A stretch of 22,027 nt of DNA from Chloroflexota bacterium (GTDB lineage Bacteria > Chloroflexota > Dehalococcoidia > SAR202 > GCA-002694895), in the NCBI GenBank assembly GCA_002715665.1, contig PAZO01000002.1:23020-45046 (forward strand). The letters run 5' to 3'. Positions 5,083 to 20,748 of this stretch are shown here, one piece after another (the stretch's first letter is position 1; every line of letters starts with the position of its first letter). The notes beneath the pieces are model-generated. The model was not told the origin of the DNA, searched no databases, and saw only the letters and a list, made by a program, of their open reading frames with translations. The position numbers and the translations under genes are program-made.

Positions 5083-5949
5083 ATGATTAAATATATTAGA
5101 AATTTTTTTTTGTCGTTATCTACAATAGTTTTTGTTTTAGGTATTTCCTATCTTACGGGTCGAGAAGGAAGTTATATATTTAATATTCCATCTTTAGTAT
5201 TTTTAGCATTAATAATTTTATTGGTACAATGGATTGCATTTATTCCTTCCTATTTAAAATCAACCGAACATTATTTTGATATTACAGGTTCTTTAACTTA
5301 TGTTACTGTTGCAATATTAGCATTTGCTATAAATGATGATAAAAATATCAGATCAGGGATTTTGACTTTGCTAGTAATTACTTGGGCACTTAGACTAGGA
5401 TTGTTTTTACTTAAAAGAGTCAAAAACGCTGGATCAGACGGACGTTTCGATGATCTCAAAGATTTTTCAACTTTTTTTATGGTTTGGAATTTGCAAGGAT
5501 TATGGATTACTTTTACTTTACTAAGTTCTTTAGTTATATTTACTTCTACAAGTTCTCCCGATTTAGGTTTTTATGATTATATTGGTATCATTTTATGGTT
5601 TGCAGGAATTTCTATTGAGATAATATCAGATAATCAAAAATCAAAATTTAAAAATGATCTCAATAATAAAAACAAATTTATAAAAACTGGTTTGTGGAAA
5701 TACTCTAGGCATCCTAATTATTTTGGTGAAATTTTACTTTGGACAGGTGTAACAATTATTTCAATTCCTTTATTTACCGGACTTAGTTGGATTGGCATTA
5801 TTTCTCCTTTGTTTGTATATGTGATGTTAAAATTTATATCAGGAGTTCGTATTTTGGAAAATAGAGCCGATTTAAAATGGGGAGATGATGAACTCTACAT
5901 CAAATACAAAAAAGAAACTCCGGAAATATTTCCATTTAAAATAGGATGA
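5083..5949 (+). CDS. DUF1295 / steroid 5-alpha-reductase-like integral membrane protein
   Basis: A 288-residue membrane protein with about seven helices. The C-terminal signature LWKYSRHPNYFGEILLWTG (near 206-224), then LENRADLKWGDDELYIKYKK, is typical of DUF1295, which belongs with steroid 5-alpha reductases and isoprenylcysteine methyltransferases. Relatives bind NADPH or S-adenosylmethionine in this segment. The reaction of bacterial DUF1295 proteins is mostly unknown, and a role in reducing or methylating a lipid-like substrate is a reasonable guess. It starts 6 nt after nhaD and ends 3 nt before the ene-reductase, so transcription is shared. Confidence 0.88.
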   Translation: MIKYIRNFFLSLSTIVFVLGISYLTGREGSYIFNIPSLVFLALIILLVQWIAFIPSYLKSTEHYFDITGSLTYVTVAILAFAINDDKNIRSGILTLLVITWALRLGLFLLKRVKNAGSDGRFDDLKDFSTFFMVWNLQGLWITFTLLSSLVIFTSTSSPDLGFYDYIGIILWFAGISIEIISDNQKSKFKNDLNNKNKFIKTGLWKYSRHPNYFGEILLWTGVTIISIPLFTGLSWIGIISPLFVYVMLKFISGVRILENRADLKWGDDELYIKYKKETPEIFPFKIG

Positions 5950-5952
5950 AAA

Positions 5953-7014
5953 ATGTCAAAATTATTTGAATCTATAAAAATCAAAAACGAAGTTATCAAA
6001 AATCGAGCATGGGTAAGTCCTATGTGTACATACTCATCGATTGATGGAATGGCAAATGACTGGCATCTTGTACATTTAGGATCGAGAGCAATGGGTGGTT
6101 CGGGATTAGTAATGATGGAAGCAACAGCAGTTTCACCAGAAGGTCGTATAAGTCCATGGGATATGGGATTATGGAATGACAAACAAATTGAACCTATGAA
6201 AAAAATTACCAAATTTATTTCTGAATGTGGATCTACTCCTGCTATTCAATTAGCTCATGCTGGAAGGAAGGCTTCAACAAATCGGCCATGGTTAGGTGGA
6301 GGTAATGTCTCAAAAAATGAAGGAGGATGGGATCCTGTAGGTCCAAGTAATATTCCGTATAGTAATAAATCTTTGATTCCTAAAGAATTAAAATTAGTAG
6401 AAATAGAAAAAATTATAGATGATTTTGTTTTATCGGCAAAGAGATCTGTTGAAGCGGGTTTTAAAGTAATAGAATTACATTTTGCGCATGGCTATTTAGT
6501 ACATGAATTTTTATCTCCCATTTCTAACCACAGAGAAGACAAATTTGGAGGAAATTTTGAAAATAGGATTTTGTTGGCAACAACTATTGCAAGCAAAGTT
6601 ATAGAAGCAATAGGTAATACTATCCCTGTATTTGCAAGACTTTCTGTTACAGAATATTATCCAGGTGAAGGTTGGGACTTGGAATCATCAATAAAATTAT
6701 CAAAGAAACTAAAATCAATAGGCATAGATTTAATAGATTGTTCCTCTGGTGCAAATTACTCTGAACAAAAAATAGAAATAAAACCTGGATATCAGGTTGG
6801 ATTTTCCAAGGAAATACGTAATCAGGCAGAGATTTTAACTGGAGCTGTTGGGTTGATAACAGAATCAACTCAAGCAGAAGAAATATTAGAATCGAATGGA
6901 GCAGATGCTATATTCATGGCTAGAGAGTATTTAAGAAATCCGTATTGGGCATTGCATGCTGAGCAAAATAAGGATTCATGGCCTTTGCAATATCAAAGAT
7001 CTATAGATTTATAG
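5953..7014 (+). CDS. Old yellow enzyme family NADH:flavin oxidoreductase (YqjM-like)
   Basis: A 353-residue FMN enzyme of the old yellow enzyme family, thermophilic-like/YqjM subclass. Evidence is the flavin-tuning cysteine in SPMCTYSS (C25), QLAHAGRKAS, the substrate-binding histidine pair in LHFAHGYLVHEFLSP, and HREDKFGGNFENR, RLSVTEY and the C-terminal ADAIFMAREYLRNPYW. Members reduce activated C=C bonds of enones, enals and nitro compounds, or open substituted rings as in XenA. The length matches YqjM (about 340). The neighbouring DUF1295 reductase-like protein may act on a related unsaturated lipid, but this is inference. Confidence 0.93.
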   Translation: MSKLFESIKIKNEVIKNRAWVSPMCTYSSIDGMANDWHLVHLGSRAMGGSGLVMMEATAVSPEGRISPWDMGLWNDKQIEPMKKITKFISECGSTPAIQLAHAGRKASTNRPWLGGGNVSKNEGGWDPVGPSNIPYSNKSLIPKELKLVEIEKIIDDFVLSAKRSVEAGFKVIELHFAHGYLVHEFLSPISNHREDKFGGNFENRILLATTIASKVIEAIGNTIPVFARLSVTEYYPGEGWDLESSIKLSKKLKSIGIDLIDCSSGANYSEQKIEIKPGYQVGFSKEIRNQAEILTGAVGLITESTQAEEILESNGADAIFMAREYLRNPYWALHAEQNKDSWPLQYQRSIDL

Positions 7015-10668: not shown

Positions 10669-10815
10669 TCACACTATAAACACAATTAGTAAAACATAAA
10701 TTAACAACAAACTACTAAGTATTAAAGATATTATTAAACTCATTTTTCTAAATGTAGAGTTTATTTTGTTTTGTAAATTAATATTCACATTTTCATTTAA
10801 TTTTTTTTCTTCCAT
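10669..10815 (-). CDS. Small single-helix membrane protein downstream of the selenoprotein, 48 residues
   Basis: A reverse-strand ATG (10815-10813) lies 4 nt after the stop of the deiodinase-like gene and opens 48 codons to TGA (10671-10669). The first 24 residues are polar (MEEKKLNENVNINLQNKIN, then STFRK). Residues 25-48 are almost purely hydrophobic and run to the C terminus, the form of a tail-anchored or single-pass peptide. No family is recognised. Position and spacing suggest cotranslation with the selenoprotein, perhaps placing it at the membrane. It could be a chance frame in AT-rich DNA, but the clean polar/hydrophobic split argues for a gene. Confidence 0.5.
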   Translation of the reverse strand: MEEKKLNENVNINLQNKINSTFRKMSLIISLILSSLLLIYVLLIVFIV

Positions 10816-10819
10816 ATAT

Positions 10820-11590
10820 TTAGTAATCCTGCTTATCTAGCCATTCTTGTAATTTTTTACCCATAGATTTGCCAAGACTTGAATTAGATTGAACCGGGCC
10901 AGTGTAGTGATTTGCAGAATTTATAAAGTCTTTTATTGCTTTTGGACCTGCATCATTCAAAAGAATTGTCATAAATTCTTCAGTATCATTTTTTCTCATT
11001 GGTTGCCACTCAATGTAATACGGTGTTACTCTAATTTTATCTTCCATCATTTTTCGTTCTTCTTGGTAGTGATTTAAAGCCATTTTTATTGTAGAAGGAT
11101 CTGTCCAATCTGATTTGTAGATAATATTTCCATATCTGTTTACTATATATGTCATATTGGGAAGTCTGCCGTAAGCTTTATGAACATTTCCTTCCAGAGA
11201 ATCAACTAGCATTGTTCTTTTAATATATTTTTTTGTCATTAATTTTGCATGATCGATTTTTTGCTCAAAAGAACTGAGATGTGGTATTTTTTCACCAGGA
11301 TGAGCTTCTCGGGTATATATAAATACAAAATTAAATTTGTCACCAAATTCTTTCACTAAATTATCAAATCCTGGCGCCGCCAGGGCACATTCTGATCAGG
11401 TTATAGAACCAAATTCTATGATAGTAGTTTTTTCTTTCCAATATGTTGAAAGTTGTTCCCATTTTTGTTCTTTGACGTTGTATATCTTACCTTCAGGTGC
11501 TTTTGTCCCGGCATTTGCAATACCAGGAAAATCTATAAATGCTTGCATATCAAAATCTAGAGGGAAACTGTCATAATTATAAGAACTCAT
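10820..11590 (-). CDS. Iodothyronine-deiodinase-like selenoprotein (thioredoxin fold), in-frame TGA = Sec65
   Basis: One 256-codon gene interrupted by TGA at 11398-11396. Reading TGA as selenocysteine gives IEFGSITU-SECALAAPGF, matching the deiodinase active site (FGSxTU). Deiodinase-like segments continue after it: VFIYTREAHPGE, SLEGNVHKAYGRLPNMTYIV and YGNIIYKSDWTDP. The thioredoxin-fold core is about 45-185 and the length matches family members. The residue at +3 after Sec is Cys, giving a U-x-x-C redox pair; vertebrate deiodinases have UPP here. A GC-rich hairpin follows the TGA at SECIS distance. The fold suggests reductive chemistry (dehalogenation or peroxide/thiol redox); the substrate is unknown. 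No signal peptide is seen. It is 66 nt downstream of an MFS exporter on the same strand and 4 nt upstream of a small membrane protein. A nonsense mutation is the alternative, but the frame is intact on both sides. Confidence 0.87.
11370..11384 (-). promoter_or_regulatory. Candidate bacterial SECIS hairpin
   Basis: On the reverse strand, CCTGGC-GGC-GCCAGG forms a perfect 6-bp stem with a 3-nt loop that begins with G. The loop starts 17 nt after the TGA (11398-11396). This fits the known bacterial SECIS pattern: a hairpin within the coding region, 16-37 nt from UGA to the loop, and G in the first two loop positions. The 15 bases contain 13 G or C in a genome of about 30 % G+C, which suggests selection for the structure. 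It should bind SelB and direct Sec insertion. Confidence 0.8.
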
Positions 11591-15764: not shown

Positions 15765-16469
15765 ATGAATATTTTATGTTATAAAGATAGCTATTTAAAA
15801 CAATGTGAATCCAAAATTATTGATGTAAATGATATGGGAGTCATGCTTGATCAAACTGTTTTTTACCCAGGAGGAGGAGGACAACCATCTGATTCAGGTA
15901 TTTTGAAAAACGCCGAACAAGAATTTATAGTAAAATCTGTAAAACGAATAGATGGTAATCTGATTCATGTAATAGATGATGCAAAACCTGAAAAAAATTC
16001 TGTTTATGAATCTATTATTAATTGGGATAATCGTTATAAATTAATGAGAACTCACACTGCTTTACATATTTTGTGCGGAGTAATTTGGAGAGATTATGGA
16101 GCGTCAGTTACTGGCGGTGATATGAAACCATTGTCTGGAAGAATGGATTTTGAACTAGAGGAAATGTCAGTTGATTTTTCTGAAGAAGTAGAGGACAAAA
16201 TTAACAAAGAGGTTAATATGTCGCGAAATATTAAAGTATATGACTTACCAAGAGAAGAAGCTTTTCAAATACCTGATTTAATTAGAACAAAAATTAATTT
16301 ACTCCCAAAAGGTATCGAAAAAGTAAGGATTGTTGACATTGAAGGTCTTGATCTTCAAGCTGACGGAGGAACACATGTTAATAATACTTCTGAAGTTGGG
16401 CATATCAAAATGACAGGTCATGAAAGCAAAGGAAAAAACAATAAAAGATTACGAATTGAGGTGGTTTAA
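15765..16469 (+). CDS. alaX: AlaX-type alanyl-tRNA editing protein
   Basis: A 234-residue stand-alone editing domain related to alanyl-tRNA synthetase, which hydrolyses Ser- or Gly-tRNA(Ala). The N-terminal beta domain has the FYPGGGGQPSDSG motif (33-45) typical of the longer AlaX form (AlaX-M). The zinc/catalytic motif HxxxH is HTALH (H97, H101). The second motif, usually CGGTH, reads DGGTH (D200 to H204), so the zinc-ligand cysteine is Asp. GGAGA (15756-15760) gives a good ribosome site for ATG 15765. Formate dehydrogenase follows on the same strand after 75 nt, which contains its own promoter-like elements. Confidence 0.9.
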   Translation: MNILCYKDSYLKQCESKIIDVNDMGVMLDQTVFYPGGGGQPSDSGILKNAEQEFIVKSVKRIDGNLIHVIDDAKPEKNSVYESIINWDNRYKLMRTHTALHILCGVIWRDYGASVTGGDMKPLSGRMDFELEEMSVDFSEEVEDKINKEVNMSRNIKVYDLPREEAFQIPDLIRTKINLLPKGIEKVRIVDIEGLDLQADGGTHVNNTSEVGHIKMTGHESKGKNNKRLRIEVV

Positions 16470-18984: not shown

Positions 18985-20037
18985 ATGAATAAAAATATCA
19001 AAATAGGTATAATTGGAGCAGGTGAAAACACCAAAAAATTTCACATACCTAATTTTCAACGATTAGATAATGTAGAAGTGATTGCGGTATGCAACAGATC
19101 ATATGAATCAGGTAAAAAAGTTGCTGATGAATTTGGGATAGATAAAGTGTACGATAATTGGATTGATTTACTATCAAATGACCACATAGATGCAATTTGT
19201 ATAGGTACATGGCCTTACATGCACGAAGTTTTAGTTACAGAATCTCTTAAGAATAATAAGCATGTAATGACAGAAGCTAGAATGACATTTGACTTTGATA
19301 GTTCTAAAAAAATGTTAGAGGCTTCAAAAAAGAAACCTCATTTGATTTGTCAAATTGTCCCAGCACCAATGACTTTGAAATTTGATAAATACATAAGAAA
19401 AACTATAGCTGAAAATAAGATTGGAAATGTTATACAAGTAGATATTTCTATAAATCATCAAACTCCAATTAGCGTGTCAGGTGGGTACCCTGATTTCAAT
19501 TCTGCCAATCATTGGAGATCAGATATCAATTTCTCCGGAATGAATACCATGCAATTAGGAATTTGGTATGAAGCAATGATGCGATGGGTGGGTGCAGCAA
19601 AAAATGTTATGTCAATTTCAAGAATTACGGTGAATACCAAAAAAAACGAAGATGATTATGAGTACATACGCATTCCAGATAACGTAAATGTAATTGGAGA
19701 ATTGGATATAGGTGGATTATATAATATCCAAATGAGTACAGTAAAAGGTCATGCCCCATTGGATTCTGTAATGATATATGGAACTACAGGAACAATAAAA
19801 TTAGACTGTGTAAACTATGATTTATTCATGGCCAATGATAAAAGTGATTTGAAAAAAATCAATATTCCTAGTGAATTTCAATCTTCATGGAGGGTCGAAG
19901 AAGAGTTTATAAATGCAATTAATGGAAAAGAAAAAATTTCACATACAACATTTGAAACAGGCTTGAGATACATGGAATTCGTAGAAGCAGTAAGGAAAAG
20001 CAGTGAATCAGGCTCGAAAATTTCTTTATTTACTTAG
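18985..20037 (+). CDS. Gfo/Idh/MocA family oxidoreductase
   Basis: A 350-residue protein with an N-terminal Rossmann domain (IKIGIIGAGENTKKFHIP, residues 5-22; VIAVCNRS; DAICIGTWPYMHEV) and a C-terminal alpha/beta dimer domain with SSDxxxH-like GYPDFNSANHWRSDINFSG. The family oxidises or reduces sugars and inositols with NAD(P). The usual EKP motif after strand 4, which carries the catalytic lysine, reads EAR (in HVMTEARMTF near residue 95). The enzyme may therefore be an atypical or non-catalytic member. AGAGAG before the ATG serves as ribosome site. The gene overlaps the convergent thioredoxin gene by 8 nt. Confidence 0.88.
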   Translation: MNKNIKIGIIGAGENTKKFHIPNFQRLDNVEVIAVCNRSYESGKKVADEFGIDKVYDNWIDLLSNDHIDAICIGTWPYMHEVLVTESLKNNKHVMTEARMTFDFDSSKKMLEASKKKPHLICQIVPAPMTLKFDKYIRKTIAENKIGNVIQVDISINHQTPISVSGGYPDFNSANHWRSDINFSGMNTMQLGIWYEAMMRWVGAAKNVMSISRITVNTKKNEDDYEYIRIPDNVNVIGELDIGGLYNIQMSTVKGHAPLDSVMIYGTTGTIKLDCVNYDLFMANDKSDLKKINIPSEFQSSWRVEEEFINAINGKEKISHTTFETGLRYMEFVEAVRKSSESGSKISLFT

Positions 20038-20566
20038 TTAATTCATCTAATAGCGAAATTATTTTTTCTTTTGTTAGTGTGCCTGACACTCTAGATATTA
20101 TCTGACCTTCAGTGTTGATAAAAAAAGTTTCAGGAATTTTAGTAACACCGTATTTTATCGTTATAAAATCATCATCTTTTAAAGTAGTGAAAGAAATTTT
20201 ATATTGGTTAACAAAATTTTTTGCATCTTCTATGTCCTCGTCAATATTTATACCAAAAATTTTTACGTTTTTATTCTCTTTTTGTACACTGTCTAAAATA
20301 GGTAATTCTTTTCTACAAGGAGGACACCATGACGCCCAAAAAGTAATTATAGTTGGAGAGCTATTTGAAAAATCAATATTATAACTTTCTCCTGTTAAGT
20401 TTGTTGTTGTAAAAACAGGAGCTTCTTCAAAAATTTTAACTATGCCAATTTCTTCAGAATCCTTATTAATCTGATTCATAAAAAGTACAAATACAAGAAA
20501 AACAAACAATAATAAAAATACTGATGCAAATAGTGTTCTGATCTTAAATATATTTTTTATTTTCAT
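20030..20566 (-). CDS. TlpA/ResA-like membrane-anchored thioredoxin
   Basis: A 178-residue protein: a basic start and one N-terminal membrane helix (about 10-30), then an extracytoplasmic thioredoxin fold with TIITFWASWCPPCRKELPIL-type active site (C81-P-P-C84), GINIDEDIEDAKNFV and the cis-proline segment GVTKIPETFFI. TlpA/ResA proteins keep cysteines reduced on the outer side of the membrane, for example in cytochrome c maturation. I chose ATG 20566 because it starts the usual K-rich leader; an upstream in-frame ATG at 20608 adds 14 residues. It runs opposite to the 5S rRNA gene, whose promoter lies just upstream. Confidence 0.88.
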   Translation of the reverse strand: MKIKNIFKIRTLFASVFLLLFVFLVFVLFMNQINKDSEEIGIVKIFEEAPVFTTTNLTGESYNIDFSNSSPTIITFWASWCPPCRKELPILDSVQKENKNVKIFGINIDEDIEDAKNFVNQYKISFTTLKDDDFITIKYGVTKIPETFFINTEGQIISRVSGTLTKEKIISLLDELTK

Positions 20567-20594
20567 TTTTAACCATTTATGCTTAATATTATAA

Positions 20595-20624
20595 TTGACA
20601 ACAAACATAATGAGAATCTATAAT
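20595..20624 (+). promoter_or_regulatory. Consensus sigma70 promoter of 5S rRNA
   Basis: TTGACA (20595-20600) and TATAAT (20619-20624) are both perfect consensus hexamers separated by 18 nt. The 5S gene begins 8 nt after the -10 box, where transcription should start. Such a promoter fits a strongly expressed stable RNA. Confidence 0.85.
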
Positions 20625-20631
20625 TTCTTTT

Positions 20632-20748
20632 CCTGGTGATTATGGCGAAGTGGACCCACCCGTTCCCATCCCGAACACGGAAGTGAAACGCTTTTGCGCT
20701 GACGATACTGTATTGGCAACGATATGGGACAATAAGTAATCGCCAGGT
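20632..20748 (+). rRNA. rrf: 5S ribosomal RNA
   Basis: About 117 nt with the universal core CCCATCCCGAACACGGAAGT (20667-20686) followed by GAAACG. The ends CCTGGTGATT (20632) and AATCGCCAGG (to 20747) pair over 10 bp with one G-U, the helix I that closes 5S rRNA. It is much richer in G+C than the surrounding DNA. No 23S or 16S gene lies within 20 kb upstream, so this copy is transcribed alone from its own promoter, unlike the usual 16S-23S-5S operon. Exact ends are uncertain by one or two bases. Confidence 0.95.

Follow-up and report, generated by a model that had tools for sequence, protein, structure and literature searches.

A predicted Sec-x-x-Cys selenoprotein of the deiodinase family, with a SECIS-like hairpin behind its in-frame TGA, in a SAR202 Chloroflexota bacterium

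A gene whose selenium codon is normally a stop looks broken to software, and such a gene appears to lie in a 22,027-nucleotide stretch of a Chloroflexota bacterium of the SAR202 lineage (contig PAZO01000002.1, positions 23,020 to 45,046), which was analyzed as a whole and is called the window below. The locus raises the question of whether the TGA that interrupts its deiodinase-like reading frame is a stop or encodes selenocysteine (Sec) and, if the latter, what kind of enzyme is produced. We consider it likely that the locus encodes one selenoprotein of 256 residues, whose decoding is guided by a hairpin and which is predicted from its sequence to be a deiodinase-family Sec-Cys redox enzyme reducing a peroxide, a disulfide, or a small electrophile.

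The frame occupies positions 10820 to 11590 on the minus strand (read from 11590 to 10820) and consists of an ATG start, 256 codons, and a TAA stop. Its sole in-frame TGA, codon 65 at 11396 to 11398, falls within FGSIT-U-SECALAAP, and the family-like segments EAHPGE, AYGRLP, and YGNIIYKSDW are all found in the translation. The residue three after Sec is Cys68, encoded by TGT at 11387 to 11389, giving the motif U-S-E-C. Without recoding, translation table 11 yields only a 178-amino acid open reading frame (ORF), which starts with GTG at 11356, after the TGA. An original prediction, made from the letters of the window, had described a single TGA splitting a 256-codon frame at FGSIT-U, family-like flanks, a Cys at the third position after Sec, and a gene that automated annotation would misreport; all four points were reproduced.

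To place the site among its relatives, we gathered 64 loci by genus, class, order, and phylum searches, 63 of which had a readable site. The codon was TGA in 51 loci, Cys in 6, and another sense codon in 6 (AGT in two; ACG, GCG, GGT, or GAT in one each). All loci more than 33% identical to the window protein carried TGA, while the 12 non-TGA loci were 28 to 33% identical to it. Within the genus, an orthologue with the same TGA was present in four of five genomes; there was no orthologue match in the fifth, a genome that is 65% complete. Comparison of the window with the divergent orthologues L010 and L011 gave synonymous divergence (dS) of 1.3 to 2.1 and nonsynonymous divergence (dN) of 0.07 to 0.12 on either side of the TGA. 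Both flanks are under purifying selection, synonymous change is saturated, and the TGA has been retained. The expectation that TGA would be replaced by Cys codons alone did not hold across the family, where the six loci with another sense codon are all distant; among close relatives, no non-Cys sense codon was encountered, and TGA was retained. The TGA at codon 65 is thus very probably a selenocysteine codon. One copy in genome G281 (L063) is interrupted in frame by two TGA codons and one TAG codon and is perhaps a decaying duplicate; the genome has two further copies, with a single TGA.

A hairpin resembling a selenocysteine insertion sequence (SECIS) lies at 11370 to 11384 on the minus strand. 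It begins 11 nt after the TGA and has a 6-bp stem (CCTGGC/GCCAGG) and a 3-nt loop (GGC). Its core, CTGGCGGCGCCAG, is unchanged over five genus sequences, in a gene set with a GC content at third codon positions (GC3) of 19%. In 48 aligned sequences, pairing cells amounted to 89.2%, as compared to 66.0 ± 2.0% in shuffles and 27 to 57% when the register was slid by 1 to 3, and double-sided changes in the stem numbered 76, as compared to 25.9 ± 5.6 in shuffles, with both sides changed in five of the six stem pairs. Because the stem sits in coding sequence, two extra controls were applied, synonymous resampling and the non-TGA loci. Resampling per gene gave a mean of 3.50 pairs, whereas the 50 loci themselves have 5.34, and 46 of them exceeded their own resampled mean. 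The mean number of stem pairs was 5.33 of 6 in the 51 TGA loci and 2.33 of 6 in the 12 non-TGA loci, where no hairpin was found in the same register; this contrast is not independent of kinship, because the non-TGA loci form a distant set. A G was present within the 3-nt loop in 50 of the 51 TGA loci. The codon-choice product for CTG-GCG-GCG-CCA-GGA (1.1e-5) was computed once the stem was known and was not used as a test.

Sec machinery is present in the lineage. The nearest genome examined (G001), which has 58% of sampled 31-letter words in common with the window, contains selA, selB, selD, and a tRNA-Sec (63.7 bits; identified by ARAGORN as tRNA-SeC with anticodon tca), so that the four components proposed earlier as a check are all present, selB and tRNA-Sec included. 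Over the five genus genomes (completeness 65 to 89%), selB scored above curated cut-offs in five, and selA and selD in three each. The selD genes of three of them contain an in-frame TGA themselves (G001:C7, L032; G003:C5, L030; G004:C11, L031), and the selenophosphate synthetase of these genomes is probably a selenoprotein too. The five named loci come from metagenome-assembled genomes of Chloroflexi, Chloroflexota, or Dehalococcoidia bacterium, which we infer to be marine and members of the SAR202 group.

The best Pfam match of the read-through frame was T4_deiodinase (PF00837), at E 2.4e-13 and with 50.4 bits where the cut-off is 27. The nearest solved relatives by sequence were mouse Dio3 (7.5e-7) and Dio2 (9.9e-6), and the same two proteins ranked first in both programs used for structural comparison, whereas ResA/TlpA-type thiol-disulfide oxidoreductases and peroxiredoxins scored lower. 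The AhpC-TSA profile was barely above its cut-off (26.5 against 26), the best NCBIfam match, deiodinase_rel, was far under its own (58.7 against 250 bits), and the peroxiredoxin T-x-x-C/U motif was not found, with Ser62 at position -3 (Ser in 35 and Ala in 4 of 39 readable rows). The predicted network of S62, T64, U65, Y92, E95, and H97 corresponds to the deiodinase arrangement of a Sec/Cys nucleophile, Ser/Thr, and Tyr/Glu/His. Its Y92-T-R-E95-A-H97 segment (11300 to 11317, minus strand) is equivalent to Tyr197, Glu200, and His202 of Dio3, the roles of which are described in the available text of PMC7506546, and the Tyr, Glu, and His occur in 54 of 54 aligned rows. The window protein thus shares with the animal deiodinases (Dio2, 9h48; Dio3, 4tr3) both the fold and the Ser/Thr/Sec and Tyr/Glu/His active-site residues. 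In contrast to Dio3, it lacks nine residues of the substrate loop (omega or D loop) that follows EAHP, as judged by an alignment gap, and has Leu105 aligned with His219; in contrast to both Dio2 and Dio3, it continues beyond the matched core in a helical C-terminal part about 70 residues long.

The window protein also differs from animal deiodinases in the position of its cysteine. According to the available text of PMC9141512, the proximal Cys lies at Sec-2 in DIO1 and DIO3 and is replaced by Ala in DIO2, and in human DIO1 it forms a disulfide with residue 126, as observed with Cys in place of Sec, and regeneration by glutathione depends on it. In the window protein, Ile63 occupies position -2 and the Cys lies at +3. 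Because none of the 51 TGA loci has Cys at -2 (nor does any of 39 readable alignment rows), while 44 of them have it at +3, the resolving thiol would be placed at +3, in a thioredoxin-like Sec-x-x-Cys arrangement, and not at the DIO1-like -2. U-x-x-C is no peculiarity of this protein; it is the usual form in the bacterial loci examined and is already in print for bacterial deiodinase-like proteins. Among these loci, U-S-E-C itself was confined to the window and its genus; most others carry U-P-P-C or U-P-Y-C, and three of the 51 TGA loci carry the animal-like U-P-P-F. A quick tree built from 72 rows placed the window on a 26-row branch with support of 91, in which all members are U-x-x-C except P0049 (C-P-Y-C). 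The Dio3 fragment sat on a branch of 2.78, with the UPPF loci L045 and L093 nearest by path; because no starred set in the tree holds this fragment, we make no claim on the origin of animal deiodinases.

Together, these features suggest how the enzyme might be made and work. SelB and Sec-tRNA would decode UGA 65 as selenocysteine, guided, as the sequence and covariation indicate, by the short hairpin 11 nt downstream. The product would belong to the deiodinase family (PF00837) and have a thioredoxin/peroxiredoxin fold, with Sec65 as the predicted nucleophile among Ser/Thr/Tyr/Glu/His, as in animal deiodinases. The substrate, most likely a peroxide, a disulfide, or another electrophile, would oxidize Sec65; Cys68 would then resolve the intermediate by forming a selenenylsulfide that may be reopened by a thiol reductant of the cell.

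Related proteins have been catalogued before. In the available parts of the respective papers, a 2005 study of the Sargasso Sea (PMC1088965) reports four deiodinase-like selenoprotein sequences and suggests a redox role, and 22 Sec and 21 Cys forms are counted among deiodinase-like proteins of the Global Ocean Sampling (GOS) data in 2008 (PMC2398784). An entry "Deiodinase-like protein, PF00837, UxxC" appears in reviews of 2022 (PMC9312934) and 2026 (PMC13188914), the latter of which, in its accessible text, rates bacterial deiodinase-like selenoproteins as predicted with high confidence; in the available texts, they figure as predictions. As described in these portions, the catalogued proteins share PF00837, an in-frame TGA, a SECIS-like hairpin, and U-x-x-C with the window protein, which adds to them and differs in carrying U-S-E-C. 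In the same portions of the catalogue papers, we met neither the U-S-E-C form, nor the shifted Cys partner, nor a covariation test of the hairpin. A literature search returned no paper on SAR202 with a selenoprotein, and, judging by titles and the beginnings of abstracts, no assay of a bacterial deiodinase was recognized. The extent to which databases truncate the family became visible among 86 retrieved homologues, 74 of which begin at equivalents of residues 70 to 93, just past the Sec site; the remainder comprised one ending at residue 64, one with Trp, and ten with Cys. Because the named sources of these homologues take in Candidatus Rokubacteria, Nannocystaceae, and Streptomyces, the family extends beyond the Chloroflexota loci analyzed here. 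It offers Sec, Cys, and other-residue forms and a Cys partner placed unlike that of DIO1 and DIO3; therefore, function and regeneration are directly testable.

Several observations weigh against a hairpin-guided Sec-Cys redox enzyme. The fold energy of the window hairpin is ordinary as compared to dinucleotide shuffles (z -0.11 to -1.22) and modest under the synonymous null (575 of 20,000 equally stable). Single-hairpin fold energy was thus rejected as proof of a SECIS element, and because of this, covariation, the synonymous null, and the non-TGA loci were used. Fewer than five of six pairs form in this register in 6 of the 51 TGA loci, two of which (L084 and L093) fold a neighboring stem with a 4-nt loop. 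A weak point is that invariant codons are more frequent over the hairpin (7 of 10) than elsewhere (57 of 172; Fisher p 0.023). The evidence for Sec machinery comes from G001 and not from the window's own assembly, and selB occurs in 41 of 46 genomes that carry a TGA copy and in 28 of 32 that lack one. We therefore rejected selB presence as a discriminator of TGA copies; with frequencies this close, it is permissive and not discriminating. Cys at +3 is absent from 7 of the 51 TGA loci, and neither Sec nor Cys occupies the site in 6 of 63 loci, all distant. Last, the substrate, like the resolving role given to Cys68, is a prediction. In the six distant relatives (L054, L094, L095, L096, L099, and L102), the site holds Thr, Ala, Gly, Ser, or Asp, and by sequence the Sec/Cys nucleophile has apparently been lost.

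The alternative that survives best concerns the substrate. In a true reductive dehalogenase, Sec65 would attack the halogen atom of an organic iodide or bromide, and the resulting selenenyl halide would be resolved by Cys68. The deiodinase is indeed the closest known fold, and the invariant active-site Tyr, Glu, and His would fit; however, Leu105 stands where Dio3 has His219, the Pfam scan of window proteins and neighbors recognized no halogen-related gene, and the authors of the 2005 study, in its available text, thought a different function likely (PMC1088965). We regard this reading as doubtful. An even bolder and more doubtful version is that the bacterial U-x-x-C family as a whole comprises Sec-dependent dehalogenases of natural organohalogens, which would combine the animal network with regeneration by a relocated resolving Cys at +3 and by an ordinary thioredoxin; if true, the animal thyroid-hormone deiodinases would be a specialized, loop-expanded offshoot of a bacterial dehalogenase. 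Where the original prediction offered dehalogenation or peroxide/thiol chemistry for its Sec-Cys enzyme, thiol/peroxide chemistry is the safer reading, and dehalogenation found no support.

It is very unlikely that the TGA is a genuine stop, leaving a pseudogene or two separate products. Table 11 does give the 178-amino acid ORF after the TGA, and most database homologues are annotated likewise, but the genus retains the TGA although synonymous sites are saturated, dN is low on either flank, the site is TGA or Cys in 57 of 63 loci, and the hairpin covariation and the Sec machinery point to recoding. That this lineage uses genetic code 4, with TGA read as tryptophan, is scarcely credible: a database homologue, P0002, representing a cluster of 244 member sequences, has FGSVTWSEC, but TGA terminates 2 of 18 window genes tallied, read-through of the first would fuse it with the next complete gene (5083-7014), the nearest genome has a tRNA-Sec with anticodon tca, and, of the 12 non-TGA loci, 6 have Cys at the site and none Trp. 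Judged from the protein entry alone, the Trp of P0002 is most simply explained by a gene caller that applied code 4. The lack of an in-frame TGA in the other 17 window genes is no evidence, because table-11 ORFs cannot hold one. Thus, the original prediction stood as regards a Sec-x-x-Cys deiodinase-like selenoprotein, Sec machinery in the lineage, and truncated annotation; replacement by Cys only did not hold for the whole family, and UxxC is not peculiar to this protein.

Directly downstream of the selenoprotein gene, an ORF of 48 codons (10669 to 10815, minus strand), which encodes one hydrophobic stretch, starts 4 bases past the stop of that gene. Relatives of this ORF were found by tblastn in all three genus loci tried; they are adjacent in two, and in the third the relative lies about 1 kb off, displaced by a 307-amino acid ORF. 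The small ORF is a possible companion of the selenoprotein gene, and by analogy with the N-terminal segment of animal deiodinases, one may speculate that its product ties the selenoprotein to the membrane. Among 20 loci compared, an MFS gene upstream and genes for a 94-amino acid protein and a thiamine pyrophosphate (TPP) enzyme downstream are kept only in the window and three genus loci; a 2-hydroxyacid dehydrogenase gene adjoins in four loci and an L-PSP-like protein recurs in five, the Pfam scan of these two types having covered the L106 copies only. Because recurrent neighbors were restricted to a few loci, a conserved operon partner was rejected, and the neighbor genes of the 20 loci gave no clue to the substrate. 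Elsewhere in the window, 20030-20608 (minus strand) encodes a TlpA/ResA-like protein that has a thioredoxin fold and a C-P-P-C site and that, by its type, is a possible redox partner. A 234-amino acid protein encoded at 15765-16469 (plus strand) matches alanyl-tRNA synthetase editing domains (tRNA_SAD) and is likely a free-standing AlaX-type editor, and a 5S rRNA gene lies at 20632-20748 (plus strand).
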